From Antedon mediterranea (taxonomy: Eukaryota; Echinodermata; Crinoidea; Comatulida; Antedonidae), in NCBI RefSeq assembly GCF_964355755.1, contig NC_092673.1, positions 16,001,001-16,065,000 on the forward strand: a stretch of 64,000 nucleotides of DNA, given 5' to 3'. The position numbers and the translations under genes are program-made. The notes under the pieces are model-generated. The model saw only the letters and a program-made list of their open reading frames with translations. It was not told the origin of the DNA and did not search any database. This document shows positions 6,901 through 64,000 of this stretch, piece by piece. How positions within the stretch are numbered: position 1 is the first letter of the stretch; each line of letters opens with the position of its first letter.

Positions 6901-7981
6901 ATTACGTAATGTTATATCTTTCTACGAGTTAAGAAGATATAGCTTCTCCAATGTTTGGGATGCAGTTCTCTATCTGGAGATTCAGCAATTATTAGCAGAT
7001 GATCCAGACAAAATAAATCGGTTTGCAGATCGTCTCGGCACAATAGCAAGTAACATTCTACTTGGTAGGCTTTCTACTTTATATTATATTAAGTTTTTTG
7101 TATTGTTATTGTTATTGAATCATTCATTTTTTTAAACAGTTTACGTAATTGTAATTTGATTAAAATAATATTTGGTTTAATTTTAATCATTAAAATTTTA
7201 CATTAACTGATTATTTATAGGCAATAGTGAGAAGAAATGAGACAGCATCATCAAGTCACCAATGTGAACAAAGTGAAGGTAAATTATTCAGTAAAGTTGG
7301 GAGATAAACATAAAAAATGAAAATTATATATGATTGTAATATGATTAAGATAATAATGACATAGAAGTTGGTGATATTGAGGATGATATTACTCTAAAAT
7401 TTAGGATTTATAAAACAAAGAATATAATAATGTAACTTATTGTTATAGGAATAAAATAATTAGAGTGAGTAGTTTTTTTGTAGTTGTTTCTAAAAGCTGA
7501 TTATAGATATAGATAATATATAGATTATAATGATATTCAAATAATGATGATGATTATTAAACAATACTTATAACAATGCTGAATTTATTACTTGAAATTT
7601 GAAATGATTTTGTGGTCTTTCATGAATTTTTATTCATAAATCTTAAAACAGTAATTATGATAATGAATGCTCTCTGAATTTACTTCCTGAAATTGGAAAT
7701 GATTTTGTGGTGTTTCATGAATTATACTGTGATCATATTCAAATAATGATTATGATTTCAACAATGATTATGATGCTAATCTACTGAATTTATTACATTG
7801 GAAAATATTGCTGTGTTTTTATCAATTTATATTTATTATTCATAATCTTAAAACAACAATTACAATTACAATTTCCACAATAATCATGATTACTGTTATA
7901 CTAAATTTATTGATACTGTTTTTCATTTGTATAGATCTCTCAGAAGATGATGAAGACTTAGTCACAGACTTAGCCCAATGA
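191..7981 (+). CDS. Gene 1: C-terminal part of a Roc-COR-DED protein (5' end outside window)
   Basis: Multi-exon gene not recognised by name. Exons by splice sites and paralogue alignment: 191-280, 407-586, 739-996, 1317-1511, 2253-2432, 2640-2948, 3093-3164, 3626-3839, 5213-5239, 5513-5575, 6552-7064 and 7935-7981, giving about 715 residues in one frame ending DLAQ-stop. The first exon (ALYIVVFDLSKP) follows Roc G3; the second carries ILIVGTHKGK at the G4 position; 1317-3839 is COR, including a Cys-rich IPCRC segment; 3839-5575 encodes an acidic Ser/Glu linker; 6552-7064 is a DED-like helical module. Roc-COR is the GTPase/dimerisation core of ROCO proteins; no kinase follows. The Asp normal in G4 (T/N-K-x-D) is Gly here, so guanine recognition may differ. 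The N-terminal half (P-loop, probably ankyrin repeats as in gene 2) lies upstream of base 1. Family call is firm; pathway is inference. Confidence 0.85.
1317..3839 (+). CDS. Gene 1 COR domain exons
   Basis: Exons 1317-1511, 2253-2432, 2640-2948, 3093-3164 and 3626-3839. COR (C-terminal of Roc) is the dimerisation module of ROCO proteins. Visible signatures are the winged-helix part (LYDLGEIVYM, VVLDPMRLVEIVTKFV), a helix-rich block (FEFLVALMIQFGFI) and the beta-rich COR-B part (PIYYDFEGYLPDVLFPYLI). The last exon has a Cys cluster (RCIPCRCS, then two more Cys). It ends in phase 1, which all following exons keep. Confidence 0.8.
2433..2639 (+). other. GC-AG intron in gene 1
   Basis: The donor is GCAAGT, not GTNNGT, after a codon ending GG. 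The acceptor is TTTCAG. No GT donor nearby keeps the frame. Gene 2 has the same GC donor at 62201, so this non-canonical site predates the duplication. Confidence 0.7.
3918..4174 (+). other. Cryptic or relic exon in the gene 1 intron
   Basis: After a good acceptor (CCCTACAG, 3910-3917) about 85 codons stay open, starting in the phase of exon 3626-3839 (QETEKQKAISVLSTISDLF...), to a stop at 4172. A donor-like GTAGTA at 4070 sits where the 88-bp minisatellite begins, but its phase (0) does not suit the next exon at 5213 (phase 1). The same sequence in gene 2 (about 63939 onward) has an in-frame TAA. It could be an alternative 3' exon, an exon whose donor was lost to the minisatellite, or chance. 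Confidence 0.3.
4060..4855 (+). repeat. 88-bp tandem repeat in gene 1 intron, ~9 units
   Basis: Period 87-88 bp (unit starts near 4162, 4250, 4338, 4425, 4513, 4601, 4688), highly uniform. Each unit has a pyrimidine tract followed by CAG and several GTAG triplets, so it contains acceptor- and donor-like strings. Open frames of 60-91 aa here are by-products of the period not being a multiple of three. Confidence 0.95.
4985..5160 (-). mobile_element. Possible 3' tail of a LINE, antisense in intron
   Basis: Read on the minus strand the segment carries a GGTCTTCAACCC block and ends in a GAATAAAATGAAATGAA-like A-rich tail, the layout of CR1/Jockey-type 3' UTRs. No coding sequence. Family assignment is tentative. 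Confidence 0.35.
5213..5575 (+). CDS. Gene 1 acidic linker exons, one a 27-nt microexon
   Basis: Exon 5213-5239 (27 nt) and exon 5513-5575 (63 nt) both keep phase 1-1, so either can be skipped without a frameshift. They code a short hydrophilic Ser/Asp/Glu/Gln-rich linker between COR and the DED-like module. Borders are ACAG|AT...CAAG|GTATG and TTTAG|GC...GAAG|GTAAG. Confidence 0.6.
6552..7064 (+). CDS. Gene 1 DED-like C-terminal module (single large exon)
   Basis: 513-nt exon, phase 1-1, 171 residues. Residues ~3-80 fit a death effector domain: FRDLKAGLSGCF, then WLRFLLFDKL, NDLLNELENKGLI, NVNLLLEIT and AKDLVSKYM. Spacing matches the helices of caspase-8/FADD-type DEDs, and AKDL stands where RxDL is usual. 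Residues ~95-170 are a second helical block (FKALKQIDPRALRNVISFYEL ... DAVLYLEIQQLL ... FADRLGTIASNIL) of about death-fold size that I cannot assign. A terminal DED would let a Roc-COR GTPase recruit caspase-like partners (inference). Structure prediction would settle both blocks. Confidence 0.65.
7221..7278 (+). CDS. Candidate alternative terminal exon of gene 1 (duplicate of 5513-5575)
   Basis: Good borders (TTATAG|GC...GAAG|GTAAA) and clear similarity to exon 5513-5575, ending in the same CAAAGTGAAG. It is 58 nt rather than 63, so the frame meets TGA at 7238-7240 after GNSEKK. Including it gives a short end; skipping it joins 7064 to 7935 in frame and gives an acidic end (DLSEDDEDLVTDLAQ). 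It may be a decayed exon or a regulated alternative C-terminus. Confidence 0.45.
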
Positions 7982-37938: not shown

Positions 37939-37946
37939 ATGGAAAG
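37939..37946 (+). CDS. Gene 2 first coding exon (8 nt)
   Basis: ATG GAA AG|GTACGT. Only this frame joins exon 38337 without a stop; the other two frames meet TAG or TGA within 11 codons. The start lies 19 nt after an in-frame TGA. The 5' UTR start and promoter are not identifiable. Confidence 0.6.
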
Positions 37947-40900
37947 GTACGTTTTTAACAATTATTTCAAACAAAAATAACCAGCTCCAATATGTGTTGA
38001 TATTATTGAAATATGTAACTATTAAAAACAAATTAAAATGTTTGAATAGTTATATTGACATACATATATATAACATACTTTATAATCAGAATTTATAGTT
38101 CAAACAAAAAGAAAACACTTTGATTTTAAGATATTCTTTTGAGAAAAATACTTCAAACTTTCTTAAAAGATTATAAAATCCAAAATTATTTCTTTCTTTC
38201 TTTAAAAATTATGAAATCATAAATATTACAATTAAAGCGCTTATTCTCATTAAATATAATAATAATAATATTTCCATCAATCATCATTCTCATTAAATAC
38301 ACGGGTATAAATGGATTATTTCTTACATTTTAACAGGAAACATTTGGTAGAAGCTTTGTCAAGGAATGATTTGAAAACAATTAAACAAATCTGTAAGACG
38401 CAACCAGATCTTCTGAAATCTATCAATGAGGTATAAAAACAGATATATTTTTATAATATTATCAAAGAAGAAATTCTTTTCATTAAAGTTTAAAATTATA
38501 GAGGATGTAATTTTATTTAATAGTTTAAAGCTTTTTTACTTAATGAATTACAATTCTTTTGCATTATCACACTGATGATGGAGGTATAACCTGCATATAC
38601 TGATTAACCACATTAGGCTAAAAATAATAATATAAATACACACTGATGATGGAGGTATAACCTGCATGTACTGATTAACCACATTAGGCTAAAAATAATA
38701 ATATAAATACACACTGATGATGGAGGTATAACCTGCATGTACTGATTAACAACATTAGGCTAAAAATAATAATATAAATACACACTGATGATAGGGGTAT
38801 AACCTGCATGCACTGATTAACAACATTAGGCTAAAAATAATAATATAAATACACACTGATGATGGAGGTATAACCTGCATGTACTGATTAACCACATTAG
38901 GCTAAAAATAATAATATAAATACACACTGATGATGGAGGTATAACCTGTATGTACTGATTAACCACATTAGGCTAAAAATAATAATATAAATACACACTG
39001 ATGAAGGAGGTATAACCTGCATGAACTGATTAACCACATTAGGCTAAAAATAATTTGCTAGTGTAATAGGCTAACATTCTATAGATATGCTGTGGTAAAC
39101 CATTCTATTTTGTTCTACTCATTTATTAATAATGATAATTATGATTATTTACCACAATATTTAGCAGCAATTGTTGTTGTTTGTATTGACAAAAAACAAA
39201 CAATTTCACATAATGTCTGTTGTCAGTATTTATAAACTTTATTATGATTCCTTTCCAGGATGGTAACACTCCATTACATTCATATCTGGAGAGAGGATAC
39301 CCTACCTTAGCAATAGTGACTTGTCTCATTCAGCATGGGGCACCAGCAACATTGCAAAATAAGGTAATGTACAGGGATTTGCTAGTGTAATAGGCTAACA
39401 TTATATAGATATGCTGTGGTAAACCATTCTATTTTGTTCTACTCATTTATTAATAATGATAATTATGATTATTTACCACAATATTTAGTAGCAATTGTTG
39501 TTGTTTGTATTGACAAAAAACAAACAATTTCACATAATGTCTGTTGTCAGTATTTATAAACTTTATTATGATTCCTTTCCAGGATGGTGACACTCTATTA
39601 CATATATATCTGTGGGGTAGATATACTGCACCTAACTTAGAAATAGTGACGTGTCTCATTCAGCATGGGGTACCAGTAGCATTGCAAAATAAGGTAATGT
39701 ACAGGGATTTGCTAGTGTAATAGGCTAACATTCTATAGATATGCTGTGGTAAACCATTCTATTTTGTTCTACTCATTTATTAATAATGATAATTATGATT
39801 ATTTACCACAATATTTAGCAGTAATTGTTGTTGTTTGTATTGACAAAAAACAAACAATTTCACATAATGTCTGTTGTCAGTATTTATAAACTTTATTATG
39901 ATTCCTTTCCAGGATGGTGACACTCTATTACATATATATCTGTGGGGTAGATATACTGCACCTACCTTAGAAATAGTGACTTGTCTCATTCAGCATGGGG
40001 TACCAGTAGCATTGCAAAATAAGGTAATGTACAGGGATTTGCTAGTGTAATAGGCTAACATTCTATAGATATGCTGTGGTAAACCATTCTATTTTGTTCT
40101 ACTCATTTATTAATAATGATAATTATGATTATTTACCACAATATTTAGCAGTAATTGTTGTTGTTTGTATTGACAAAAAACAAACAATTTCACATAATGT
40201 CTGTTGTCAGTATTTATAAACTTCATTATGATTCCTTTCCAGTATGGTTACACTCCATTACATACATATCTGGAGAATGGATATACACCTACCTTAGAAA
40301 TAGTGACGTGTCTCATTCAGCATGGGGTACCAGTAGCATTGCAAAATAAGGTAATGTACAGGGATTTGCTAGTGTAATAGGCTAACATTCTATAGATAAG
40401 CTGTGGTAAACCATTCTATTTTGTTCTACTCATTTATTAATAATGATAATTATGATTATTTACCACAATATTTAGCAGCAATTGTTGTTGTTTGTATTGA
40501 CAAAAAACAAACAATTTCACATAATGTCTGTTGTCAGTATTTATAAACTTTATTGTGATTCCTTTCCAGAATGGTAACACTCCATTACATTCATATCTGA
40601 AGAGAGGATACCCTACCTTAGCAATAGTGACTTGTCTCATTCAGCATGGGGCACCAGCAACATTGCAAAATAAGGTAATGTACAGGGATTTGCTAGTGTA
40701 ATAGGCTAACATTATATAGATATGCTGTGGTAAATCATTCTATTTTGTTCTACTCATTTATTAATAATGATAATTATGATTATTTACCACAATATTTAGC
40801 AGTAATTGTTGTTGTTTGTATTGACAAAAAACAAACAATTTCACATAATGTCTGTTGTCAGTATTTATAAACTTTATTATGATTCCTTTCCAGGATGGTG

Positions 40901-43900
40901 ACACTCCATTACATATACATCTGAAATATGAATATCCTTACTTAGAAATAGTGAAGTGTCTCATTCAGCATGGGTCACCAGTAGCATTGCAAAATAAGGT
41001 AATGTACAGGGATTTGCTAGTGTAATAAGCTAAAATTCTTTAGATCTACTGAAATAAACTATTCAGTGAGAGAAAAAAGTAAGCCCATTAACAAAAATCA
41101 AATTTTATTAAAACAAACCAAATTAAAATAATAACTAAACAGTTATATATGATTTATGATAACTGATTTAAAGTATACAGTTATCCATCACATAACATTA
41201 ATGTTTTTTCTTAATGAACAAAAACAATCTACTTGTAATTTTTTATATTCAGGTGAATCAGTATAATTTTGTTTAAATACTTTTTACCATAAAATAAATA
41301 TATATTGCTCAATATGTAGCTGTAAAGATAATAACAATTGAAAATGGTCTAATTAATTATAAATATGAAATAAAATGTATGTTGACAAATAATAAAATAG
41401 CAAACAAAAATGTTTGTGTTATTGTTAACAAAATTAATAGAATCTGATTGTAATAAAAAAAGAATTAGTTAGTGGTAATAACCTGCTCCTTACCTTACAA
41501 AAAAATACTTCTGTCAGTATATCCAGCTAATTACAGTTTGAATATGGCCTTAAAGAGATCCTTTTCCAGCATTTTTTTTTGCAAACATTTTGCCACAAAT
41601 GGAAGAGAAATGTAAATAATGTTTAGTTTATAGTGGTTTCCAAAATCTAAAAATGTTTGAGCAATGCAATTGGAAAAAGAAATTTAACATGAAATTATTC
41701 TTTTCAAACAGTGCCGTATCTTATCTTATGACTTTTTGGAAAAAATGATTCTATAAAGTTGCCAGTTAAAATGTGATATACTAGTAAGTGCCCACAGATG
41801 GTTCTCGAATACATGAACTTTGGTAAATAACTGAAATTGTCTAAGTCGCACTGTACACAAAGCAAATGAATACAGATATGTTGGAATTTATGTAGTCAAA
41901 TATAATTGTCATGCGGAGAATTACCTTAATTTTGTTTATTACATGGTATTGTTCACCAAATTCCTGTCTTGGTACATTTTATTATGGGATGGTATCAGAC
42001 TTCATGATATGATTTTCATTAAGGCAAATGGTTTAAACTAAATGTGTTATCGTTAATATCTAACTTAGCTTAATTATGATATTGGTTTCATTGTGTTAAA
42101 AATCAGTACTGAAAGTATTTACCAACTTTCTCAGATTTTAATGATTACTTACATTAAGTAATAGGCTAACAATCACTAGATCTGATCCATGGTAATATAT
42201 TATATTTTGTTTTCATTTATCAATAATGATAATTAATATTTTATCACATTATTTAGCAGTAATTGTTGTTGTTTGTATTTACAAAAAAAAAACCCAATTT
42301 CACATAATGTCTGTTGTCAGTATTTATAAACTTCATTATGATTCCTTTCCAGGATGGTAACCCTCTATTACATGACTATCTGGGGAATGAATATACACCT
42401 ACCTTAGAAATAGTGACGTGTCTCATTTAGCATGGGACACCTAGTATCCCCATTTTACACTTTCTCTGGGAAAAAATTAGAAACAAGTGTTTCTCAACTG
42501 ATTTGTGTCATATGGGGTCTATATATCCACCAAAAAAAAGTTCCAGCTCATCTGGCCTAGGGAAAGCCGCCATTTTGGATTTTCAAAATGGCCGCCATAA
42601 AATACAGGTTTTTGCTCATATCTCCTCTTCTACATCATGCATGGAAATGATTTTGGTGGCAAAGTGTATGTTTTGAGGGTCAAGGAATCTAAATACAGCA
42701 TTTTGAAGTTCACTCAATGACCGCCATCTTGTTTTTTCAAAATGGCCGCCTTAAAATACAGATTTGTGCTTATCTCAGCTTCTACATCATGTATAGACAT
42801 GGGAAAATGGAGGTTTTGACGGTCAAGGAATCCAAATACAGCATTAATTTGAATTTCACCCAATGGCCGCCATTTTGAAAATCAAAATGGCTGCTATAAA
42901 ATTTACAGATTTTTCCTCATATCTCAGCTTCTATATCATATGAACGTAATTTTGGTAGAAAAATATATGTTTTGAAGGTCAAGGAATTCAAATATAGTAT
43001 TTTAAAGTTCACCTAATGCCCGCCATTTTGTTTTTCAAAATGGCTGCCATAAAATTTACAGATTTGTCCTCGTACCTCAGCTTCTACATCGTGCATGGAA
43101 ATGATTTTGTTGGCAATGTTTATGTTTTGAGGGTCAAGAAATCTAAATACAGCTTTTTGAAGTTCACTCAATGACAACCATTTTGATTGTAAAAATGGCC
43201 ACCATAAGCTACAGGTTTTTGCTAATTTATGAGCTACTATGATTATGATTTTGCTAAGCCTATGTTTTGAAGGTTACAGAATAAAAACAAAATTCAGCTT
43301 TTGAAATACAGTTGGAAAGTGATGACGCGAATAAGTCAATATGTTGGTGATAATATATGGGAACCACAATGATTATGACCCCAGGAGATACTGTACACAA
43401 GAAGATATCAGCGATGTACTGTAACTATATCATTCGCGTGAAGAACCTAAAAATAAAATATTCTAAAAAAGTTTGTTAGACGACATTTTAAGATATTTTC
43501 CAAATCCTAAAGAGAAACATGGCCAACTTTAGTTAAGCATATTCCAATCAGATACATTATAGATAAAGCAAGTAAAGCAATTTAAAGCAACATATCTTAT
43601 GTGACTGAATGGATGGTTACCTAATACACTGGGGACTAACACTACTTCACCATAACTGGTCTGGATAATGCGATAACTGGACAAATCGACGATAGTTTAT
43701 GCCGATCATTCTTTTTTATCCAATTAACATGTCAACAGTTTATACAATGGTACAGCCACTCTGAAAACGTATATCTAGCTGCTCATCTACCAGTCATAAT
43801 AATCAGACACGGAGGAGTTTATCTTTTCAGGAGCTTTCTTGGTTATATTGGACATACTGGTGGGTTGAGGTTTTGAAGTTGTGCATAACCTACTTTAAAG

Positions 43901-46900: not shown

Positions 46901-49900
46901 GTTCAAATTTTGTGATTGATATTGTACAGTAAGTAGATTTTAATGACACTATACTACATTTGATCCATGGTAAGATATTATATTTTGTTTTCATTTATCA
47001 ATAGTCGACATTTATGATTATTTACCACATTATTTAGCAGTAATTTTTTCTATGGTTTGGGTTGACAAAAAAAACCCAATTTCACATAATGTTTGTTGTC
47101 AGTATTATACACCAGCAACATTGCAAAGAAGGTAATGTACAGGGATTATACAGGGATATTTCATTTGTTTCTGGATAGTATCCAAATATTATTAGCTTTG
47201 AAAGTTTATAGTAAAACTATTTGTTGTTTTATATTATGGCTCAAACATTTTAACACATCTACCTACTGTTCCAAAGTAAACTTTTATTCAATTTATCTCT
47301 CTCTCTCTCAATGTTGAAGGCGGTAGACTATAAACGGCAGCGCTTAAGTTTCGGTTTGGATACAGGAGTTATAGGTGGCGCACTGTACAAGTTGATGTCA
47401 TTTATTAGCAAATAGTAATTTCTATTCACGTCCTAATTTACAACCAATGTTAAAAAATAGTAAATCTACGTGTTATCACATGATGCTCTTTCATCCAATC
47501 TCTAGATGGTAAATGTTTGAGCCATGACATAATACTGTATGTATGTGATGCGTAATTAAAGTGTGTTATATTGTATATCAATAATTTCTCAAAACTACTA
47601 ATAACTAAACCCATTTTTTTAATAGGATGGAAATACACTTGTCTCAGTTTTAGAAAGTAACGGGTGGATAGAGGAGCAAAGTAAAACTGAAATTTTAAAC
47701 TTCTTAGAAGGTAAGTGAAGTTTTAATTATTGAAATTTTAGGATCAACTAGTTTTCATTACAAACGATAAAGATTTGATTTCTCATCAAGTGAAGAAGAA
47801 TGTCCAGATAAAGAAAATTAACATTTATGATATATCATTCACAGGTTTATTATAGATTAAATAATTCAGTAAGATAGTAGTATACATGGAAGTTGTGATA
47901 TGTTGCAAGATGTAAATTATTTTGCTATAAATACGATAAAAATAACACAAAAACGCAAACTTTAAAATTCCTTGTAAATAAAAATATTAAATAAATCATT
48001 TTTCAAATCAAATCAATCTCTTTATTCAATACATCAAAACAGTACACATAACAAAAATAAAGAGATTTTAATGATGATGATGATGATGATTTTAAGATGA
48101 AAGGGACCTTCAATAAACCTCAAGGGGCTTTTGATAGGAGGCTTCACTTTAAACTAGTTACAATAATCGGACGGGGGACATGCATTGTTAAGGAATATTT
48201 GAACTTTATTAATTGCACATAAATGTAAAATGTAGATTTTTTTTTTTTAAATCTAATCTATTTTATATATAATGCTATGTACAATTGATATTCACATTCA
48301 AGGCAAACAATTTACGATAGGAGAAGATAAATATTGAATATAAAAATCTAATTTTCTTGTTAAATCCCAGTTTTTGTTTCCACAATGGATGAATTTCCTT
48401 CACACATTTTAAATAATAATTCGTCTTCTTCGAGGAGCTGAATCACCGGATTTTCAGCGTGCCGTGCGTACCAGGTTACTACCGTAAATGATGGCGCTTA
48501 ATTTAAAGTTCTTAGTAGATATAGCTCTATTATCTATTAGCCTTATAAGTTATCCCCTTAATAGATATAGCTCTATTACCTATTAAGCACCTACTAATAA
48601 GTAGATTTTAGGTAGATTTTAGATAGTTCCTAATAGGTTTTACCTCATTAGCATAATTCAAAACCCCCACTAATAGTGTTAGATAGATTTTTCACTATTT
48701 TCAATCTGTGAGTAACACAGTTGTATGCATCTATCTATTGTCTACTTACAATAGCTATACAATGGGCTACCAGCAACCTATTAATATACATAAACAAACT
48801 GATAATAGCCAGTAACTTTTAATAAGCTATCTATTTTATACAATAGATAGATATGGACTACCAGATAGCTATTAGAAATCTATGAGTATCATATCTATCT
48901 ACTTATTATAGCTATACAAGATAATAATAGCCAGTAACTGTTAATAAGCTATCTATTTTATACAATAGATAGATATGGACTACCAGATAGCTATTAGAAA
49001 TCTATGAGTATCATATCTATCTATCTACTGTCTACTTATTATAGCTATACAAGACTACCAATGACCTATCAATAGACTATAAAGAAACTGATAATAGCCA
49101 GTTAAATATTAATCAACTATCTATTTTATAGCTGGGAAGTAGTCGTTCCATCGTTGACTCATTCAGTTAAAATCCTTAGTAGTCGAGATAAAAAGGTCTA
49201 CTAAAAAACTACTGAAAATAGAGCTATTTCTACTTAAGTCTACTTAAATTCTACTAATTTTTTTACTATGGGTAAAACCAATAGACAAATTCAAACTCCT
49301 CCTTCCCACATTTGCATTCGAGGAAAACAATTTACGATAGGAGGAGATAAATATTGAATATAAAAATAAAACATTTTCTTGTTAATCCCATTTTTTGTTT
49401 CCACAATGAATGAATTTTCTTCACACATTTTTAAGCCAGCTTAAGAATACTAATTTTCTGTATGTAAAATTAAGCATCATACATGTGTTATTCTAAACAC
49501 CAAGTCCCACAAAGCATAACCAAGATCTACCAAGTGTATAAAGAACAGTGCCTTTATTTAATTGGTTACTGGTCATAAAACAGAATATAAATAAAAACAT
49601 TTAAAAAGTTCAAGGCATCTATATATAAATTATGGTTAATTCTGACATAGGCGAGCACAATGCAAAAACTTCGGTACAAATCTCCGCCTTGGATACCTAC
49701 CTTATCTATCCGAGATGTACCGTGAAACGTAGATTTGATAACATTAGTGTGCACGCCGACGCTATTGTTCCATATTTATATCTTAGGAAGATATTATAAA
49801 GAGTTTTTTAACAACATTTATGATTTCAACATTAGATTTTCCTCTCAATTTCAATTCTTCCCGGTCAAAGTAATTTCCGGGTTTAAGATAAGTTCACCTT

Positions 49901-52900: not shown

Positions 52901-55900
52901 CAATTTGTATCAACGGAGTCTGGCAAAAATAGAAAGATAATTAATGCAGCAACTATACAGGCTAGGTATATAGCTAGCGTACGATGTTCGTACGTTACCG
53001 ATGTTTACCAGCTAGGCCTACAAAACTAAGCCTAGCTAGGCTAGGCCTGAGACCGTCCACGAGAGGTCGATCGCCGCGAGCTACTTAGGTAGTGCATTGT
53101 TTCTCACTTTTTATCATAATTTACCATAAAACGTACATTTAAGACAAGGAAAGACATGGTTTAATGTTTTTAAAGTGATATATATGTATTATTTTCCAAA
53201 AAACGTCCAAAATTGCAGGGAAGGGGTCTTTAATTAGATACAGGCAAAAAGTGTATTTTTACTTGTGTGAACAGCGCCCTCAATCTTCATTTTTTTCCCA
53301 AAAATACCACATACCATACATGAGTTAAGGGATTCACTTTCACCTACTTAAGGAAAACACTTAATTTAAGGGTAAAACTTAAGGGTAAAAACAATCATAA
53401 ATATTCATGAGTTGTCCCATTGTCCAATCACAGAGGATTTAATTCCCCTATGGTCCAATCACTTTCCTCTCTAAAACTAATTTGCATATTTAAAAAAAGA
53501 TTAAGGGGTTGGGGGGACGGGGAGGATGAAGAGAAAAATGTATAGACAATGGTAGTCAAAACAAAAACAAATGAATATTAAACCTAGACTAATGTGTATG
53601 AGGATCAAGAAAAATAGGTCTAGCCTAGATGCTACTAACAAACCAACATTCTGTGTAGGCCTAAACCTGTCTGTATTGAGGCATATGCATCCTAGGCTGG
53701 TTACTGGGCAGACCAACAGGGGGCCTAGCGTCTCTACCTAGCCTACTAGAATGGGGCTAATTTCTATTACAACGAAATGGGAAGCCATCTTCCACAAAAA
53801 TAATGGCAGTCAAAACAAACAAATAAATCAATATATAGGCATAGACTAATTTGTATGGGTGGGGATCAGCAGAAAAAGGTCTAGATGCTACTCAAACCAA
53901 ACATGAATCCTAGGCCGGTTAGTGGGCAGACCAACAGGGGGCCTAGCATCTCTACCTAGCCTAGACTGGGGCCATCTACAAGTAGGCATAGTACTCGCAC
54001 ATACAGAATCGTCAGCACAACCAAGGTACTGAATAGTTAAGGGAACTTTTAAGGGACCACCTCTGAGGTCCCTTAAAAGTTAAGGGGAAAATAGACCAAG
54101 TTAAGGGTTTCCCTTAACCTTAAACCCTTTGTGAATACCACTTAAGTGAAACCCTTAATAATAATATTTTCTTGATTTAAGGGAAATCCTTAGGATTTAA
54201 GGGAAATATCTCACTTAAGTGTGATTGGTGAATACGGCCACTGGACTATATTATTAAAACTAAAAAATTTAACATCCCTCGAATAAGCACCTCCCTCAAA
54301 TGACCTCCGCCTCCCCAAAGGGCCCTACCAAACAATAAAAACTATACTTTAAAATGTTATTAATCATCTAAAACACTGTGAAACAAAGTAGTTTAGTTTT
54401 ACGAATGTCAAGCATTTTCAATAATGGTAACCGACAGAAAACGTATAAGGAGAACATTATCATTCCGAGAACCATCGTCTACACTTCCTAGAGGGGGAGC
54501 GAGCGAAGCGAGCTCACCCTCTAGTATTAAAAACTTACGATAGGTGGTCAATAATTCCTACTGCCAAATTCTGAATCATACCAGTTATTCATTTCAGGAT
54601 TACTTTATTTTCACTTTACACAGTGAAACCATCCTAATCAACCGTATGGTGCTAGAAATGATTTAGATTCAGGATCTCTGTCAAAAATCGTTGCATAACG
54701 CCTATATGTTTGGATGAGTTTGAGTTCACACAATTTTTAGGACATAATTAATAACTGTAGTTGTTAACTGTATACATTTTAGTTTAAAAAAATACATTAT
54801 TATTATAGTATATCCAGAATGAATGAGGTTTACCATTTTCATGTATAGTCGATTGCTTGTACACAGTCACCCACAAGCTTTTATATAACCTTATACCATT
54901 GAAAAAGTTTAAAGATACCATATGACAATTCAAGAGTTTTGCCAAGCTGTGACTTTTAATATAGTGTTTTTTTATGAAAATATGTAATATGTAATATTTT
55001 TGTTTGGGTATTTTTTTAGATTTACCAAGTACTGTTGATGAGCAATTTCAAACACAATTTCAGAAACCGACAAGTGACGAACAGAAAACAAAACTTCTTA
55101 AGCCAGAGAGTGGTGAGTTTAAGAATCATAAGAGCTGCTGTATGTTGTATGATTGTATCTATATATAATTTAACACAATTGTGATTAAAATGGGATTTCA
55201 GTAAGGAGAGAATTAGACGCTAATGTTATTTAAAAAAAGCATTATTTCTGAGCGGTACTGTAAAAAGGCGAAAAGTGTGCAACTAATAACAAATGGAGAG
55301 ATTTTATTTATCATAAATAAAACAAACAGTTGATTGTTTCCATCCAAAATACTGTAATAATGGAATGGAGCTAGTTTGCAGATTTATGTGGCATGCTTGA
55401 TTGATGATTTTTTTTTTTTTTTACTTTATTTACTCCAGATGTTTTAAAAATCTATTAAAATCTTGATTCAATTTTCAGATATTCCATGTGATATTGCTGC
55501 TCGTGAATTAGAGTATCAGGAAGCTTACAAGGAAGCTTTGAAAGGAGGATCTGTCGCAGTCAATCTTGGAATGCTTAAGGTGATTGGACAGGAAGGAGTG
55601 GGTAAAACATGCCTCATAAATGCCTGTCTTGGAAAGATGTAAGTAGTTGGACAGTAAAATTGACATTACAAAATACATGTAGGTACTGCCTAATTATAAC
55701 AATAATAGATAATAGAATTAAATTTTAACATTGTTTTGTAATTTTAAATGAAAGATCATTTTAATTGTTGACTAAATAACTGATTTAAAATGTGTATTTT
55801 ATAAATAAAGACTATTGAAATAGTAACTACTGGTATCTATAATTAAAAAGAGAAAATTGAATTTTACAGCACTAAAAATGAATGACATTCATTGTTGGTT

Positions 55901-58900
55901 TCAAATTATTATATTATTATTATATGTATCTCAGATTTGAGGAAGAACATAAAGTTACAGATGGCATAGCAGTGATAAGGACTGTAAGCACAACATGGAA
56001 AGAGGCTAAAGCTGATAGTGGTAAACATGAATACAAATTAGCATATTACTCTTCCCATCATCATAGTCAATGTAACAATATTTATCTTTGATCTCATTAT
56101 CATAGACACAAACAGGCCCACAATGAAACTGAGATGTTGAATAGAATTCAATAAATGCATACAACTGTAGTATGATGTCAACAGTCATATTTTCACATAC
56201 ATACAGCAATTGTTACTCCATGATCCCTTAACACACAAGCTATTGTTTGTTGATGTACTGTAATTTTACATTAATTAATCAATCAGTTAAAATATTGTCA
56301 CCTATCAATGTATCTGCTGTAATAATATGTGCAAATGTCTTTTTTCTCTACAGGTAATCCTTTAAAACAGTATACAAAAATGGTCACTGACAAATTGAGA
56401 GAAAAGAAAACTGTAAACGTATGTCAATACTAGCGTAATAAAAACATAATATAAATAAAGTATCACCTACAGGACTATTTCAAACCAGTCACTTAGGCTT
56501 TCTTTCTAAATGAATCAATGAGGCATTATGAGCAGCTATTTCATTTTTTTTGCTTCAATCCTTTTAAAATTTACTAAAAAAATTTATTTGGTTTTGCTTT
56601 TGAGAGTAAACAATATTAGTTTTCTCTTATATTAAATTGTAAACAATACTGTATTTAACTTTGAATAAACATTTATTTCATTTTTATATCCATATATTGT
56701 TTTTGTTTTATGTGTCAGATTGACATGAAACCACCTGTAGATGATGATGATAATAATGACAACAATGATGGTGGTATTGTTGTTGACTACAATAACGATG
56801 ACAACAATGATGGTATGTAAACATTTATTTCTTTTTAATATCCATTTATTTTATGTGTAGATTGACATGAAACCACCTACAGATGATGATGGTATTGTTG
56901 TTGATGACAACAATGATGATTACAAAACTGATGACAACAATGATTACAACAATGATGGTATGTAACTTTCCCTTAAATTCTAATTATTATTACATTTTTG
57001 TAGTAAAAGCACTAATAAATAAGTTGCAATCATCAGCTTGCAATTTCTGTCATATTAAACATCTATTGTCCCCAAAAAACATGAAAAATAAAGATTATTA
57101 AAATCAGACTTTGAATAGATTATTTTGTAGTTAATCACTTCTGTAGAAAAAAAAGGAAACAACTAAGGTTTTCACTTATAAAATAACAAAATAAATGGTT
57201 AAATTTTACCAAATACCCATTGACTGGCAGTCAATTTGACTTTTTTTTTTCAATCCAATTTTTAGTCGCGTGGAAGCGACTCTATAGTTCACTATGTCGG
57301 TTGGTCGGTCTGTCTGTCTGTCTGTCTGTCTGTCGGTCTGTCTGTCGGTCTGTCTGTCTGTCTGTCGGTCCGGTATCACTATGCGTTTTATCGCTTTATG
57401 ACCTTATCTTGATATCAGTTTAATCTAGCTAAATCAATTTTTCACAGAATATTCCTTATGGCCAGGAATCGATGTGGTTATGATTTCACGGTGCGCAATA
57501 AAAAATTACGCGGTCTACGCACGATTTAACGAAATCACGTTTGTAATCATATCTTAACAACCATGAATCACAATTAAATAAAATTTGGTACTCATAAATT
57601 TCAGGGCATAAATCATCATATGGCAATACAATTACGTGCGTAGCGCATGTAACGCATGCGTACGCGCGCCTAAAATTTTCAAAATTTATTTTCGATGAAA
57701 TAAGAGTACGTTTCAGGCAATTTTAAGCGTTTACAAAATTGCCATGAGTGCGCAGATTTTTGCGCGCGCACTGCGCGTTAAATGTTATTGCGCACTCTTT
57801 TTGCCCGATTTCTGTTTTCTTGACTTACTTTTCAACTCGAAATTACGTTATACGAGCACGTCAAAAGTGACAGGCTACGCACGTGTAAATTAAAAAAATA
57901 TAAATGTTTTTAAACATTTCAACATTTTTAAACATGTTCAGTAATTTCGGTCAGTATAGTTCACTATGTCGGTCGGTCCGTCTGTCTGTCGGTCGGTCTG
58001 TCTGTCTGTCGGTCTGTTTGTCTGTCGGTCCGGTATCACTATGCATTGTAGCACGCGACTTAATGGCTGTTGGCCTTGTTTTTATAGTGGATAACTATTA
58101 GGTGACATTAAAATGGCATATTAAAAAAAAAAATTGTAACCATTATTTTTTCAGGAGGACGATACATCTTTAAATTCATAGTTATATAAAGTTAGATTTT
58201 CCAATTTAATGTAACTAAAGAAGTATAAAATTATGTTATCAGATTCATAACTTAGAGGCAACCTATCTGTGTAACAATTATGGTGACCGTAATTTGGAGA
58301 AAACAAAGCGTCCTACTCCTAGACATAGTCTACAGACGCTGTACACGCAGGCTTGGTGGGCATGTTTCCTAGTTAGGAAAGTTAAAAAAACACCTAATTA
58401 AAAACTTAGAAGAGGCTTACAAAGATGCTTATTTTTTTTATGAATCTAGAAGAATCAAAGTGAATTCACAGTCCTGGTGACCGTCCCGGGGCGAAAGCTC
58501 ATTATGATGATAATGAAGACAACTATACTCATAGCAACTTTTTAACTGAGTCACTGAATACTATGTTGACTTAAAATGTTAAAATAATGATGCTTGTTAC
58601 GCCGTTTGTGGAATGACCAAAACACTTGTTTTCGCTACAGGTACTGATACAGCTACTCAAGCTATTCCATTTGATACAGATCAACAATTAGATAAAGATG
58701 TAATCAAGGAAGTTAAGGAAAATAAGGAGACTTTGAAAGAAACATTCAACATCTGGGACCATGGGGGACAATTAATCTACCATGGTCTACATCGGGTAAG
58801 TAGGTTTCTGTATAGACTAACATGATTGTATGGCCATTCAGTAATTGCAAACCTCTTTCCATGGTACTTCATAGTAATATATAATATTTTAATATTAGAT

Positions 58901-61900
58901 TCTTGTCATTTCATTGGAGGATTGTGGGTCACATGATATTCAATAGACATACTATTAAACTTTTAAGTCAGATTACATATTCTTATGTTACACAGTGAGC
59001 AACCGAAACATGGGATGCAAGAATAGACTGCGTGTTAAAAAATCAATCTGTATTGTCACGTCTATAATTGTTCTACTCAGCGTCCATTCCTGTCTTCTTG
59101 AATAGTTTAGGCCTTGGCCTTGGCCTAGCCTCTTGTTAAAAGTATAACACACCTACTATAATTGTTTGCCTTCTGCCTTCTTGAATAGTTTAGGCCTTGG
59201 CCTAGCCTCTTGTTGATGTTTATGTATAATACATCTACTTTTAACAAGAGGCTAGGCCATTGAAAAGGCAGAACTCTAATTTTAGAGAGGGAGTAAAACA
59301 ATTGGCAACATACAGCACACACTACTGGTTAATGAAACGTGATCAGTCAACAACAGCCTCTTGAAGAGTGTGTGGTTAAATGTTCACTGTGAAAATATGC
59401 GCAAAACAAAGTTGCAGTACTGGCACACATACCTGTATAATGACATTGCACTCTTGATGACATCATTAGGGGAGTAATAGAACATTTATTTATATCATGT
59501 GACCCATAATCCTCCAATCAAATAAAAATAATCTACTTTGGGGTGTTATAATATACAAATAATGAATGTTTATGAGTGCAATGTATTGAAAAATAATTTC
59601 ATGTGATAACAGTAGAACATTTCATCTTTCACTAATGAATTTTTTGTTTCATTGCATGAATATAAAATATTCATTATTTGTATATTATCCATGACTAATG
59701 TTAATATTAAACATTTTCAGTAAGTTTTCGCCACATTAATTATCAAAGAATTTGTATATGAAAGTCTTTATTATATATCAAGGTCCACATACAATTTAAA
59801 ATAATATTTGTTATGTTGTCAGAAGGCCTTAAAGAATATTAATTAGTCAATATCTGAATATTTTTGCAGATGTTCATAACACTACAAGCACTATACATTG
59901 TTGTGTTTGATCTCAGTAAACCATTGGATGATCTTGCTACTTTCATTGATTCAACTGAAGTAAGTGTTTCTAGATGCAATAAGGCATTGAGATTGAACAA
60001 ATCTTCTAATTTATAAGAACATGCATTTTATGCATTAAAAACAGTTCCAAATAAGATGTAGTAATGAATGCTTTCAAAAACTAACCATTTCAAGTTTCAC
60101 TGTGATTAAGTGTTTTCATAATTTTTTTTATACAGGAAACATCTAGACATCATTGGACCAATCTCCAGTTCATATTATCTTACATCCTGTCAGTTTATTC
60201 TCATAGTCGTATTGTGGAAGAAGATGAAGAGAATGAAGTTGACAAACCAACTATCCTTATTGTGGGTACACATAAGGGTAAGCTTGGTAAGACTGAAAAA
60301 CAGCAAAATGATGAGGTTAATACTTCTTTTGTTTCTATATTATTATAAATAGCCACAACCAAAGATACATTGCAGTTGTAAATGTTTTTAAATATGTATT
60401 ACTTAAAATAAATTACAAAATTGACACATTCTTATTATGATATAGGTGTAAACTGTTATTAAAATTATTTACAAACAGGCAGAAAAGGCGTTTAAAATTA
60501 TTCAAGATGTGCTTAAAACAAAACCATATGGAAATCATGTCTACCACAAATATTTTGCCATTGAAAACAGCCAACCAACAACAGATAAGAGCTTTAGTGA
60601 TCTCAAACAAGTTATTGATGAACTTATGAAAGCTTTAGAAAAGCCTTTTCCTTTAAAGTGGATGCGTTTTCGATGTGATCTACATGATCTAAGAGGAAAA
60701 AAACACCCCTCTTTTTCTTTGTGTCCTTTAGAAGAGGTAAATGTTATTTGTTTTGTTTTTGTTCTTTTTTTTCAGAAAAGAACATTTTGGGAAATATTAA
60801 GTCGCAATATATCTATCAAGTATCTAAAAAAAAAAAATTTATGTTTCCAAATATAAGTACCCTTTAATTAAAAAATGTCTATAGATAATTAGATTACTAT
60901 ATCCAAAACCATATTTTCATCTCAGATATTTGCTGCCATTGTTTTATTTATAAATTGTGTGTTTGAAAATAATAAGGTAATTAGCCATTGAAATTCAATA
61001 TTTAAAACTATTTTTTCATGTATTACCCACATGTTACAAAAACTGAATATTATTTCATTTTTTTTTTATTCTGAATAATACTAATTATTATTTCTTTTAG
61101 ATCAAAATTCTGAAAAGTAAGAATGGTATTGTTGAAAAAGAAAAATACAAATCAGTCCTGCTTAACTTCCTGTACGATCTTGGTGAAATTGTTTACATGC
61201 CTGACAACAAATTACTAAGGAATAAAGTCGTGCTAGATCCGTTGAGGCTGGTTGAAATTGTCACCAAATTTGTAACTGTGGTTCCCCCAAAATATCCCGT
61301 AAGTAGACTCATGTAATGTCTTGAATTGTAAAAACGTGTTGCCGTAGTATAATTACTCCTGTTCTGTGTAATTTATTATTCCTTATAGCAAAGAGTTTGC
61401 CTTTAGTAATATTTGATAGAGATGCTTAACATTTTCTATAGATAAAAAAAAGTCATTTGTAATTTATTGTAATTTTTTTACAAGTTTTAATTATTTCACT
61501 TTTAATATTCTGCTTTCAATCTATTATAATTGAAGCACTATAAAAGTGAATAGCAAACTAACTTGGAGTAATTTCACAGTTTAACCCTTTCACTGCGTGT
61601 ATTACCGGGTATAAACATGTCGTTGATCTCCATATAACCATCATTACCGAGTACACTATATTTTTGATAAACTTAAATATATTTGCAATGTTTTAAAACT
61701 ATTTTCCTGCACTACATGCAACCTCTATATTTTTTAATATCGTCGTATCGTACCATTTTCTTACTCCAAACGGTAGACCAACCTTTTACCCACCTCAAAA
61801 ATATTTACAAAATTATCTCATTTAGTAGGTTTTTGCAATTTATTAAAAATCACCTGTCTCTCAATGTTATGCACAGTGAAAGGGTTAAACCACGATACTG

Positions 61901-63849
61901 TATTATACCAACACATGGTTCATCCATATTCTAAATGCTTACTGTATCTATTGCCGTCATCCTCACAACTGTTATAAACACAAAATACGATGCATAATTG
62001 ATAGTTGGTGTTTTTTTTAGTCCGCTAAATTTAGAAGATCTTTTGATAAGCTTGACAAAGGCATACTGGAAGAAGACTTGTTGCGAAAATTATGGAAAGA
62101 TAGTAAAGTTGATGACGAAAAGAATTTTGAGTTCCTTGTAGCACTGATGATTCAATTCGGTTTTATATGTGAGAGAAAGACAACCAGTAGCCAAGATGTG
62201 GCAAGTACATCTATAGTAGGTTATGTTTCTTTAATCTTTCATTTGATGCATGTAAGATTTGGAATAAAAAGTATTATTCTAATAGTTTGGATTTAAATGT
62301 TGAGACAAAGTTTGAATAAACTTTCTAGTGAAAATGGCTAAATGATAGAGTATCTTTAGTTTGTTTAAAGTAATCTAAATGGCATCGTTACGAATTAACA
62401 ATTTCAGAAATCAGTTGGAAAACGATCCTTTTTTGTACCACTGCGACTTGCTATCAAGACAAGTCAAGTGAGACAAGTACCTGATGATTCACAATCTATC
62501 AGCAGACCTATCTATTACGACTTTGAGGGATATCTGCCAGACGTATTGTTTCCATATTTAATTATTGAATTCCTTAACAAATTTCAAAAGGAAGGAGTTA
62601 ACCCAATACTCGCATGTAATTATGCAGAACTTTACCTCGACGAAAATCATCATGTGACTTTGTCTATTGACAAATTTATTACTAAGAATGATGAGCGAAA
62701 GTTCTTGTTAAAGGTAATATATAATCTCAAATGTTCAATAAATATCACTAAATTATGAAAGTTAAATATTGTTGCTTAGTCTTTCCCTGATCTGTCATGT
62801 CAGAATCTACTTTAAATGCATATAAAACTAAAACTAAATTCTGATAACAAAACATTACATCTATTTTTACTTTCTAGATGGCTATTAAAAGAACAGATTC
62901 TTTTGATGAAACGAGTAAAGAGGAGCCTTCAGCTGAAGCATGTAAATTGGTATGTATCTATACCAGTTACGTTCTCTATCTATTTGGAGGTAGTTTATGA
63001 AAATACACATAGAAAGTTTTCTCCTCAATTTTTTGTCAGGTTTGCTTGATGTCTGAAAATTTCTGCATATACTGATTTTAAAAACCAATTACATATTACT
63101 TTCCAACATTGCATTGTATAGTATAATAATGAATGTTTATGAGATGGATGGTAAGAATATTTTATGAGTTGAAAGATTGACTGCACTATTTTTAACAAAG
63201 CAGAGCCGAAAATAGAGCAGTCAATGAATAACATATTCTCTCCATTCAAAGAATACAAAACATTCATTATTTATTTTATAACACACCTATTTTTTATTAA
63301 ATTTATCCATCGTAAATCAGTGACGAATGTTAGGCCCGGGAAGCTAGGTCATTTAAAAAGGCGGTGATCCAACTTTGGACACGGAGTAGAACCGTAAACA
63401 GCGTAAACAAATTACATCCATGTTCTCTTTTATTTTTGTAATTGAATTGTAAGTAATTTTAATATGTATCTGCCTATTAAAAGATTTATTCCCAATCAAG
63501 TTTTCAGATTTACACCATAAATCTAAAAACATTGCCTGCCTCACATTACATAAAATGTCTAACTTTGTAAGCTACTGCACCATTGATGTGTTAAATTCAA
63601 TTAAATTCAAATCAACATTAAATTTATATCTTTAGGTTTTGTCAACAGTTGAGAAGTCATTCGAGCAATCTAAAGATGGTGGTAGAAGAGGGATTCCATT
63701 CAAGAGATGCATTCCTTGTCGGTGTAGTGATCAATTAGACAAAAAGCATTTTCAAATTCTTAAAGATTTCCAATGCAGGAAGTTTACGTGCACAGAAACT
63801 GGCAAGTCTGTTACGATGGATGTCACATGTTACAAGCGGCTGTTTGGAG
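37939..63849 (+). CDS. Gene 2: ankyrin-Roc-COR protein (3' end outside window)
   Basis: Exons: 37939-37946, 38337-38430, 39259-39363, 39583-39693, 39913-40023, 40243-40350, 40570-40674, 40894-40998, 47626-47710, 55020-55112, 55479-55638, 55935-56020, 56354-56418, 56719-56812 or 56861-56957, 58641-58795, 59870-59959, 60136-60315, 60479-60736, 61101-61298, 62021-62200, 62408-62713, 62878-62949, 63636-63849. About 994 residues in one frame. ATG 37939 is preceded in frame by TGA (37918). Domains: N-terminal helix (1-34), six ankyrin repeats (35-249), cap (~250-277), linker, Roc with G1 GQEGVGKT (~345-352), G3 WDHGG (~482), THKG at G4 (~570), COR (~672-994). By gene 1, a DED-like end should follow outside the window. 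A GTP-regulated scaffold with ankyrin ligand binding is inferred from family. Confidence 0.85.
38337..38430 (+). CDS. Gene 2 exon 2, N-terminal helix
   Basis: KHLVEALSRNDLKTIKQICK, an amphipathic helix pair like the N-terminal cap before ankyrin repeats. Acceptor TAACAG, donor GTATAA. Confidence 0.7.
38567..39050 (+). repeat. ~71-bp minisatellite in gene 2 intron, ~7 units
   Basis: Unit CACACTGATGATGGAGGTAT ... TTAGGCTAAAAATAATAATA, very uniform. It lies immediately before the ankyrin cassettes. Confidence 0.95.
39040..41016 (+). repeat. ~330-bp tandem exon-intron cassettes (six ankyrin exons)
   Basis: Six cassettes start near 39040, 39370, 39700, 40030, 40360 and 40690. Each has an intron part (GATTTGCTAGTGTAATAGGC...CCTTTCCAG) and one ankyrin exon of 35, 37, 37, 36, 35 and 35 codons. 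All exons are phase 0-0, so any number may be included. The introns are nearly identical, whereas the exons vary mostly in the few codons after TPLH (SYLERGYP, IYLWGRYTAP, TYLENGYTP, SYLKRGYP, IHLKYEYP). The ankyrin consensus (DGNTPLH, LIQHGAP) is clear. Confidence 0.9.
42353..45693 (+). pseudogene. Dead seventh ankyrin exon split by a foldback element
   Basis: 42353-42441 reads as an ankyrin exon (DGNPLLHDYLGNEYTPTLE) but has TAG at 42428-42430 where others have CAG (Gln). It then breaks after CATGGGACACC. The exon end AGTAGCATTGCAAAATAAG|GTAATG is found at 45675-45693, after a 3230-bp insertion flanked by ACC. It must be skipped for a full-length protein. Confidence 0.8.
42442..45671. mobile_element. 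3.2 kb foldback (long inverted repeat) element
   Basis: Starts TAGTATCCCCATTTTA and ends in its complement (TAAAATAGGGATACTA), with ACC duplicated at 42439-42441 and 45672-45674. Inverted arms reach about 1.3 kb each. The outer part of each arm is ~150-bp tandem units (four to five per arm), each with AAAATGGCGGCC-type text. The centre (43700-44440) has a 91-codon frame of unknown nature. The layout resembles sea urchin TU/foldback elements (family knowledge); identity is not proven. Confidence 0.75.
45700..47131 (+). repeat. Duplicate of intron 41000-42350 with an ankyrin exon relic
   Basis: 45718-47090 parallels 41020-42340 (GAGAGAAAAAAGTAAGC, AGTTATATATGATTTATGAT, GCAAACATTTTGCCACAAA), diverged by indels. 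At the end only a scrap of ankyrin exon is left: CACCAGCAACATTGCAAAG-AAG|GTAATG (47110-47134). An eighth cassette has been deleted. Confidence 0.7.
47626..47710 (+). CDS. Gene 2 ankyrin cap exon
   Basis: DGNTLVSVLESNGWIEEQSKTEILNFLE starts like an ankyrin repeat and ends in a helix. Phase 0-1. Acceptor AATAG, donor GTAAGT. It closes the repeat stack before the linker to Roc. Confidence 0.75.
47990..48130 (-). mobile_element. Possible LINE 3' tail, antisense
   Basis: On the minus strand: (CATCAT)n, TTTTGTTATGTGTACTG, then TTGAATAAAGAGATTGATTTG. A LINE-like tail; family unresolved. Includes a (GATGAT)n microsatellite. Confidence 0.3.
48295..49440 (+). repeat. Two ~130-bp direct repeats around an AT-rich tandem region
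   Basis: AACAATTTACGATAGGAG-AGATAAATATTGAATATAA ... TTCCACAATG-ATGAATTT occurs at 48307-48415 and 49328-49435. Between them, ~124-bp units (AATAGCCAGTAACTTTTAAT, AGATAGATATGGACTACCAG) repeat at about 48800 and 48925 plus partial copies. It may be an internally repeated transposon. Confidence 0.65.
50130..50400 (-). other. Unassigned segment, possible solo-LTR-like
   Basis: On the minus strand, GGGCCCAAGAAAGAAGACAT ... CAATAAAACTCAGC is GC-richer than its surroundings and has an AATAAA, somewhat like the R-U5 of an LTR. No TG...CA ends could be fixed. Weak. Confidence 0.2.
50700..51015 (-). promoter_or_regulatory. Three DR1-like nuclear receptor half-site pairs
   Basis: TGACCTCTGACCT (50702), TGACCTTTGACCT (50869) and TGACCTTTGACCT (50999) are direct repeats of AGGTCA spaced by one base (DR1) on the minus strand. 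They sit in an AT-rich intron repeat with ~130-165 bp spacing. Function is unknown; they may only reflect the repeat unit. Confidence 0.35.
51253..52508. mobile_element. Second PIF/Harbinger-like MITE (1256 bp)
   Basis: Ends GGCCAAATAAAAAAA(T/C)ATAC then TTGTTAAGCGTCAC at both ends (~34-bp TIR). TTA flanks both sides (51250-51252, 52509-52511), a TWA duplication as in PIF/Harbinger. Its interior is mostly a copy of the CAGGGCTCG transposon (51365-52376). Confidence 0.75.
51365..52376. mobile_element. Truncated copy of the 36426-37760 transposon
   Basis: Long collinear match (TGGACGTTTTGGCCCACTTT vs 36705; TTTGAAAACAGCTTACGGCA; end GTGAATTTCGAGCCCT). The left TIR is missing. Confidence 0.8.
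52610..53229. mobile_element. TTAA-target MITE (620 bp)
   Basis: Ends AGCCCCATTCCCTACG and, inverted, AGACCCCTTCCCTGC, flanked by TTAA (52606-52609, 53230-53233). Kolobok- or piggyBac-type target; the AG start favours Kolobok. No transposase. Confidence 0.65.
53280..54245. repeat. TTAAGGG-dense repeat with an internal ~250-bp duplication
   Basis: TTAAGGG/CCCTTAA occurs over a dozen times, clustered at both ends (53325-53400, 54035-54220). The middle holds two diverged copies of ...GGGCAGACCAACAGGGGGCC... (53705 and 53926). Probably a DNA transposon with subterminal motifs. Confidence 0.55.
54491..54526. repeat. GC-rich quasi-palindrome
   Basis: CTAGAGGGGGAGCGAGC ... GCGAGCTCACCCTCTAG forms a long imperfect hairpin in the AT-rich intron. 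Confidence 0.6.
55020..55112 (+). CDS. Gene 2 hydrophilic linker exon
   Basis: DLPSTVDEQFQTQFQKPTS..., polar linker between ankyrin stack and Roc. Phase 1-1, so skippable. Acceptor TTTTTTTAG, donor GTGAGT. Confidence 0.65.
55479..56418 (+). CDS. Gene 2 Roc G1-G2 exons
   Basis: Exons 55479-55638, 55935-56020, 56354-56418. The first holds the P-loop, LKVIGQEGVGKTCLINACLG, with the GxxxxGKT pattern and the following helix. The second (KVTDGIAVIRTVSTTW) covers the switch I/G2 region, with Thr residues that could bind Mg2+. The third is a basic helix (KMVTDKLREKKTVN). The two borders inside the Roc fold join in frame (phases 2 and 1). Confidence 0.85.
56719..56812 (+). CDS. Gene 2 acidic exon a (mutually exclusive with b)
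   Basis: IDMKPPVDDDDNNDNNDGG... Phase 0 acceptor, phase 1 donor (GATG|GTATGT). Encodes an Asp/Asn-rich loop before G3. Joining a to b would create GA-TTGA with an immediate stop. Confidence 0.75.
56861..56957 (+). CDS. Gene 2 acidic exon b (mutually exclusive with a)
   Basis: IDMKPPTDDDGIVVDDNNDD... Same borders and phases as exon a, 48 nt further on, one codon longer. The a-b intron is only 48 bp, itself likely too short or marginal for splicing. Confidence 0.75.
57264..58060. mobile_element. Element with (GTCT)n direct repeats and AGTCGCGTG ends
   Basis: Left end is AGTCGC-GTGGAA-GCGACT (hairpin); right end GCACGCGACT. A ~95-bp direct repeat (CTATAGTTCACTATGTCGGT, (GTCT)n, GGTCCGGTATCACTATGC) sits at 57282-57382 and 57953-58045. 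The middle has GC-rich CGCGCGC text like the Helitron-like family, but I cannot align it reliably. Confidence 0.55.
58641..59959 (+). CDS. Gene 2 Roc G3 exons
   Basis: Exon 58641-58795 ends with FNIWDHGGQLIYHGLHR, the G3 loop (DxxG as DHGG). Exon 59870-59959 is ALYIVVFDLS. The intron between holds a MITE. Confidence 0.85.
58913..59518. mobile_element. 606-bp MITE with 27-bp TIR
   Basis: ATTGGAGGATT(G/A)TGGGTCAC at both ends in inverse orientation, one mismatch in 27 bp. It also holds repeats of TTAGGCCTTGGCCTAGCCTC and an inverted copy (59236-59258). No clear target duplication. Confidence 0.65.
60136..60736 (+). CDS. Gene 2 Roc G4 exons
   Basis: Exons 60136-60315 (with ILIVGTHKGK) and 60479-60736. 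The corresponding gene 1 exons (407-586, 739-996) are nearly identical, introns included. Amino acid differences are few (GWTEEQQ vs GKTEKQQ). Confidence 0.85.
61101..63849 (+). CDS. Gene 2 COR exons
   Basis: 61101-61298, 62021-62200, 62408-62713, 62878-62949, 63636-63849, matching gene 1 COR. The exon at 62021 ends at a GC donor (62201). One codon is added at 61140 and one removed at 62410 relative to gene 1. The last exon ends phase 1; following exons are outside the window. The 62949-63636 intron has a ~300-bp insertion compared with gene 1. Confidence 0.85.
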
Positions 63850-64000
63850 GTAAGAGTCATTAAATTTATTTATTTTTATTAAGTACATTTTCATTAATAC
63901 ACTACTTTCTTCATGAAGGACTCTCACTCATCCCTAGAGCACAGGAAACTGAAAAACAAAAGGCTATTTCTGTTCTATAAACAATTTGTGACCTATTTCT

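Follow-up and report, generated by a model that had tools for sequence, protein, structure and literature searches.

Exchangeable ankyrin exon cassettes with excess nonsynonymous diversity in a cluster of inferred ROCO genes of the crinoid Antedon mediterranea

An ankyrin cassette array and its family

We analysed a stretch of 64,000 nucleotides of the Antedon mediterranea genome (354 Mb in 18 contigs), hereafter the window, which spans positions 16001001-16065000 of contig NC_092673.1 (C4) and carries a tandem array of ankyrin-encoding exon cassettes in an inferred gene with ROC and COR regions. Tandem Repeats Finder reported a period of 324/330 with 6.1 copies at 39053-41045, which corresponds to the six exon-intron units of about 330 bp, nearly identical in their intron part, that the original prediction described. 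The cassette exons lie on the forward strand at 39259..39363 (35 aa; splice sites, frame and Pfam), 39583..39693 (37 aa), 39913..40023 (37 aa), 40243..40350 (36 aa), 40570..40674 (35 aa) and 40894..40998 (35 aa). They are separated by five homogenised introns of exactly 219 bp each (39364..39582, 39694..39912, 40024..40242, 40351..40569 and 40675..40893), any two of which differ at 1-5 positions (97.7-99.5% identity), while exon pairs show 2-19 differences per 105-111 sites plus 0-6 gap columns (82-98% identity). Sequence 5' of the first cassette exon is more divergent, with 9-11 differences from the array introns. All six exons (105-111 nt) are open, divisible by three and of phase 0-0, as had been proposed, with a CAG acceptor and a GTAATG donor, and they differ in length by whole-codon indels. 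One exon corresponds to one ankyrin repeat: a single exon reached PF00023 with 2.6e-5 and 24.7 bits (cut-off 21.1), and the six joined exons matched the same family with 4e-31 and 105.7 bits, which identifies them as ankyrin repeats.

The array belongs to a family that is concentrated on the same contig. A 783-bp query returned at least 122 DNA matches (40 of 206 candidates scored), all of them at 16.0-19.7 Mb of C4 except three on C9, and a one-repeat query, for which 150 of 580 candidates were scored, returned at least 150 matches, every listed one on C4; the matches listed for the latter include further arrays outside the fetched set, such as those around 16.90 and 18.69 Mb. Our cassette sample consisted of the window and 30 fetched stretches (labelled L0xx), in which 196 profile hits were found. 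Dropping 46 partial hits, two of which (in L007 and L026) do contain open exons, left 150 full-length units, and 146 of these were open and in frame, a count biased toward intact calls, since the exon end was set at whichever possible donor gave an open frame. The four failures comprise one unit in L028 with a lost acceptor AG, two in L023 with TCCAA at the acceptor position and one in L034 with a donor outside the accepted search pattern. Cassette exons measure 102-123 nt across the family, with codon indels, and the number of intact cassettes per fetched locus ranges from 1 to 13, in agreement with the expectation that repeat number can change. Setting the divergent L023 and L034 aside gave 138 cassettes, 122 of them unique with flanks, whose 112 distinct exons encode 112 distinct peptides.

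Diversity and probable selection in the cassettes

Over all codons of the 122 unique cassettes, nonsynonymous diversity (pN, 0.122) was twice the synonymous diversity (pS, 0.061, or 0.043 without alignment codon 30), and exon-adjacent intron (80 nt before and 50 nt after the exon) had a diversity of 0.061, equal to pS. Exon changes thus lie above intron and synonymous rates, and not at or below them. By codon position, diversity was 0.144, 0.117 and 0.066 for the first, second and third base, respectively. In each of the 21 arrays tested, all with at least three unique cassettes, pN exceeded pS, the within-array means being 0.112 for pN, 0.052 for pS and 0.054 for intron. A descriptive division of the alignment gave pN 0.386 and pS 0.161 in hypervariable columns and pN 0.047 and pS 0.036 in framework columns.

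The earlier claim that introns are more conserved than exons holds for the window array and for the sequence beside the exons, but it fails family-wide over 90 nt of downstream intron (diversity 0.177 against 0.106 in exons), because the version of the intron differs between arrays. What is anomalous is the excess of nonsynonymous change, and introns are not specially conserved across the family. Variability had also been described mainly for the codons that follow the TPLH motif. It was found there, but it extends to positions 1, 3 and 5, to a length-variable inter-helix loop and to positions 26/28, so that the variable repeat positions as a whole are 1, 3, 5, 8, 11-14, the loop before 15, and 26/28, in an assumed numbering of the ankyrin repeat, for which the alignment with ankyrin chains was the sole check. 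These sites map to the hairpin, the inner helix and the inter-helix loop. In fungal ankyrin repeats, positively selected sites likewise lie on inner helices and the hairpin, with one exception, according to the excerpted text of PMC4986451.

Probable exchange between cassettes, and duplicated loci

For 35 common two-state sites, the four-gamete test failed in 540 of 595 pairs. Within one cassette, r2 fell from 0.124 at distances below 15 columns to 0.014 beyond 150 columns, a decay for which 3 of 2,000 permutations were as extreme; the corresponding counts were 49 of 2,000 with all sites and 16 of 2,000 with intron sites. A second line of evidence comes from L010, a locus 1.19 Mb away that shows a single difference from the window in the 2,226 bp preceding the first cassette, whereas the two arrays differ at 25 of 1,095 intron, 66 of 642 exon and 10 of 68 first post-array positions (Fisher 1e-11 and 2e-12). 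All six exons differ, and exons of the same rank are no closer to each other than others are (11.0 vs 11.3; 39% of pairings as low). Mutation in place does not by itself account for this pattern, which calls for either a replacement of cassettes or a later homogenisation of the flank. The loci L012 and L030 share 99.3% identity over 6.1 kb, yet carry 8 and 9 intact cassettes, respectively. L011 and L014, 345 kb apart, differ by 1 mismatch in 7,001 bp and represent either a recent segmental duplication or an assembly duplicate.

The inferred gene and neighbouring features

All gene parts described here lie on the forward strand. Predicted exon 1 (37939..37946) provides the start codon, ATGGAAAG, and is in phase with predicted exon 2 (38337..38430), which would encode an N-terminal cap helix; both were placed by splice sites and frame, and exon 2 also occurs in L010, L013, L020 and L032 according to an exact-pattern search. 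For the part downstream of the array, open spliceable exons were sought in one of four paralogous loci, the shortest, and then checked in the remaining three. This yielded a putative C-terminal ankyrin cap exon (47626..47710, phase 0 to 1, open in all four loci), a ROC exon with the P-loop GQEGVGKT (55479..55638; the whole exon open in three loci, the P-loop part in four) and a second ROC exon (55935..56020, open in four), presumably the switch I region. Two other candidates were left out, one of 95 nt that is open in four of four loci, as its phase misfits the next exon, and one of 114 nt that is open in three of four. A ROC exon with WDHGGQ follows at 58641..58795, whose frame alone scored 0.0017 with PF08477, below cut-off, and 60106..63863 holds more ROC/COR frames belonging to this gene, which continues beyond the window end. 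Among them, COR-A (PF16095) was matched at 62021-62296 with 0.011, below cut-off, and is positioned after Roc as expected. Joining the predicted exons from exon 1 to ROC gave an open frame of 410 residues, in which Roc (PF08477) was found over cut-off at 4.5e-9 and 37 bits (cut-off 27), as in ROCO proteins. The Pfam scan of these residues returned ankyrin, Roc and Ras, and neither NACHT nor NB-ARC; the rest was scanned as ten separate frames. The predicted protein start has no obvious signal peptide by eye, and ROC and a putative COR are present; we therefore infer an intracellular signalling protein and not a surface receptor, contrary to the receptor-like protein of the original prediction.

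The upstream end of the window holds a paralogue with a ROC/COR region at 353..3853 (COR-A 0.0018 at 2253-2528, below cut-off), and window positions 23-1467 are 97% identical to L036. This upstream gene ends with a putative tandem death effector domain (DED) exon at 6515..7135 that matches PF01335 at 3.6e-4, below cut-off. A profile of 18 genomic DED copies aligned with caspase-8 tandem DED chains (E 6e-4, residues 8-169, positions 7-163 of 169), and 11 of the 18 copies match PF01335 at 0.01. The tandem DED is a metazoan domain. Of the 28 COR matches listed at 16.0-19.7 Mb of C4, nine are followed on the same strand by a listed DED less than 10 kb away, at a spacing of 5.2-7.3 kb in eight of the nine pairs. 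Of 30 C4 arrays in the window and the fetched stretches, 18 are followed within 30 kb on the same strand by a listed close P-loop exon, some of these exons being shared by two arrays. Exon order, frame and conservation suggest that part of the family has the domain chain ANK-ROC-COR-tandem DED, and the DED of the array's own gene would lie outside the window. With the DED exon as query (window 6515-7102), at least 150 matches were obtained (413 candidates) on many contigs; the expansion of this exon is apparently very large and extends beyond ROCO genes. The 20 kb preceding a single C3 relative of the ROC exon were scanned with a profile built from the cassettes, which detected no ankyrin exons resembling them.

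Several degenerate or repetitive elements accompany these genes. A dead seventh cassette (42353..42441, forward strand) contains an in-frame TAG and is interrupted by an insert at 42442-45671 whose ends are inverted (83% across 621 aligned columns), the exon tail restarting at 45672. The insert holds internal repeats of about 150 bp (CCGCCATTTTG), and the same insert start is present in L017. A further cassette remnant, consisting of an exon tail, marks the end of the array region (47100..47147, forward strand). Shortened cassettes in L022 (2936), L020 (2519) and other loci, in which only the exon tail after TTGTCAG is left, could be a 30-nt in-frame mini-exon or a product of decay. Directly before the first cassette, the intron 5' of the array carries a 71-bp tandem repeat of 6.9 copies (38568..39054, forward strand) that falls within the stretch nearly identical in L010. 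In the upstream gene, an 88-bp tandem repeat at 4095-4853 lies between the COR region and the DED region and is present in L035 too, and frames at 15168-19505 resemble a LINE reverse transcriptase by eye only. No RNA families were found in the window by Rfam.

A proposed diversified intracellular recognition repertoire

We hypothesize, with a probability of roughly 0.7, that cassette exchange and diversifying selection act together in intracellular ANK-ROCO proteins, in which the cassettes would form the recognition domain and many of which probably end in tandem DEDs, and the gene cluster looks like a diversified intracellular recognition repertoire. Since each exon encodes one ankyrin repeat and the introns are symmetric in phase 0, each cassette can be swapped. 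Gene conversion together with unequal exchange, acting inside arrays as well as between them, probably limits divergence to a few percent in the framework, at synonymous sites and in exon-adjacent introns, as the linkage decay and the comparison with L010 support, while diversifying selection would retain novel residues in the hairpin, in the inner helix and in the loop between the helices. The proposal of amplification or conversion combined with diversification at a presumed binding surface is borne out to this extent. By analogy with ankyrin structure, the variable residues would contact a ligand. Once bound, the ligand would act as a switch on the ROC-COR GTPase, leading to exposure of the DEDs, and these in turn may recruit a caspase-8-type cell-death or inflammatory machine. 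The likely purpose is the recognition of variable intracellular pathogens or non-self. An anticipatory intracellular receptor system in an animal, in which the exchangeable one-repeat ankyrin exons would be kept as a germline reservoir and every individual, or even every cell via splicing or somatic exchange, would build a different death-wired binding array from it, is an improbable extension.

Several observations weigh against exchange with diversifying selection in ANK-ROCO proteins. Recurrent change can also cause four-gamete failures, some arrays are near-identical copies of one another and could be assembly duplicates, and the exchange of sequence between arrays means that the 21 of 21 result does not represent independent cases. 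The hypervariable columns were selected from the same data, and in the hypervariable codons of L021 pS (0.395) exceeds pN (0.302). The L023 array, with nine 307-bp units, has an exon diversity of 0.040 and an intron diversity of 0.030; it is homogenised with little diversification and serves as an internal control, showing that not every array is under a diversifying regime. Furthermore, the COR and single-sequence DED scores are below the Pfam cut-offs, and among the matches listed on C4, 19 of 28 COR matches lack a DED within 10 kb downstream and 12 of 30 arrays lack a close P-loop exon within 30 kb. These gaps may reflect a listing that is incomplete, arrays that are orphans or genes that have more than one array.

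The alternative that survives best retains exon exchange and diversifying selection and assigns them a role outside immunity, for instance in telling self from non-self or in controlling symbionts. Fungal NLR repeats of similar signature include allorecognition genes, as described in excerpts of PMC4986451 and PMC12222747. A tandem DED output, in contrast, fits defence by cell death, and we regard a non-immune role as unlikely, while nothing here separates it from immunity. Decay, in which the arrays would be pseudogenes or relaxed duplicates with neutral exon differences, is very unlikely: the partial and failed units, the dead seventh cassette and the arrays without a listed close ROC exon speak for it, but nearly all full-length units are open with lengths divisible by three, third codon positions are quieter, and neutrality expects pN, pS and intron diversity to be equal, which they are not. 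Targeted mutation of a diversity-generating or deaminase-like kind, which could also act jointly with selection, would explain why changes cluster in few codons, but is the least credible source of the exon changes, as a base-level mutator would ignore codon position and the first two positions of hypervariable codons (0.457, 0.368) exceed the third (0.181).

If exchange and diversifying selection in ANK-ROCO proteins hold true, the cluster would be an ankyrin-based, death-domain-linked animal counterpart of the LRR-ROCO repertoire of brown algae, and one could then test whether ROCO GTPases serve generally as a chassis for recognition that evolves rapidly. It would also offer a naturally selected ankyrin library, in which the tolerated residues are readable from the genome.

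Comparison with known systems

DAPK1-type ROCO proteins combine ankyrin repeats with a following ROC-COR and a death-fold domain, as in the chain proposed here. They are distinguished by their kinase, for which no match appeared in the parts scanned here, and by a Death domain in place of the DED, whereas the present family is expanded and has hypervariable repeats. DARPin libraries are designed with a constant ankyrin framework and randomised hairpin and helix-end positions, as seen in the cassettes. The best sequence matches of the cassettes include DARPin chains; unlike these libraries, the cassettes are natural and have added loop-length variation.

The available portions of the animal ROC/COR literature name TIR, LRR, kinase or death domains as partners, and not ankyrin cassettes; an animal report of an ankyrin-cassette ROCO arrangement was not found in open-licence PMC literature, available in part, which is weak evidence of absence. 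In bacteria, AP-GTPase/COR proteins place a Roc-type GTPase and COR behind fast-evolving repeats and are linked to immunity, but their repeats are N-terminal LRRs without exon cassettes, as far as the excerpt of PMC8195603 goes. Fungal NLR genes with ANK, TPR or WD repeats resemble the cassettes in the high internal identity and variable number of ankyrin repeats and in positive selection at hairpin and inner helix; they carry NACHT/NB-ARC where ROC-COR is found here, and the word 'intron' has 0 occurrences in the text of PMC4986451. The LRR genes of Tetrahymena with arrays of 90-bp exons share one-size exons, a uniform intron phase, a characteristic intron length (about 257 bp in T. thermophila) and ectopic recombination, but they are ciliate LRR genes of phase 2, with no ROC-COR-DED chain in the excerpted text (PMC6564038).

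The nearest known relative system is found in brown algae, whose LRR-ROCO genes undergo exon shuffling and have been proposed as an immune repertoire, according to the available text of Teng et al. 2024 (PMC11378527, which cites Zambounis et al. 2012). Both systems combine a ROC-COR GTPase, of which the COR part is putative in the crinoid genes, with N-terminal repeats that are each encoded by a single exon; both show a uniform phase and positive selection at concave-face positions, again as given in the excerpt, and for both an immune repertoire is proposed. Unlike the algal genes, which in the same excerpt use LRR exons of phase 2 with a constant 72 nt and are mostly dispersed, the animal genes described here are clustered, use ankyrin exons of phase 0 and 102-123 nt with codon indels, and have a putative DED in related genes. 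One repeat per exon, uniform phase and diversifying selection are thus found in the A. mediterranea cluster and LRR repeats are not; the ANK-ROCO cluster works like the exon-shuffled ROCO system of brown algae without being a member of it.

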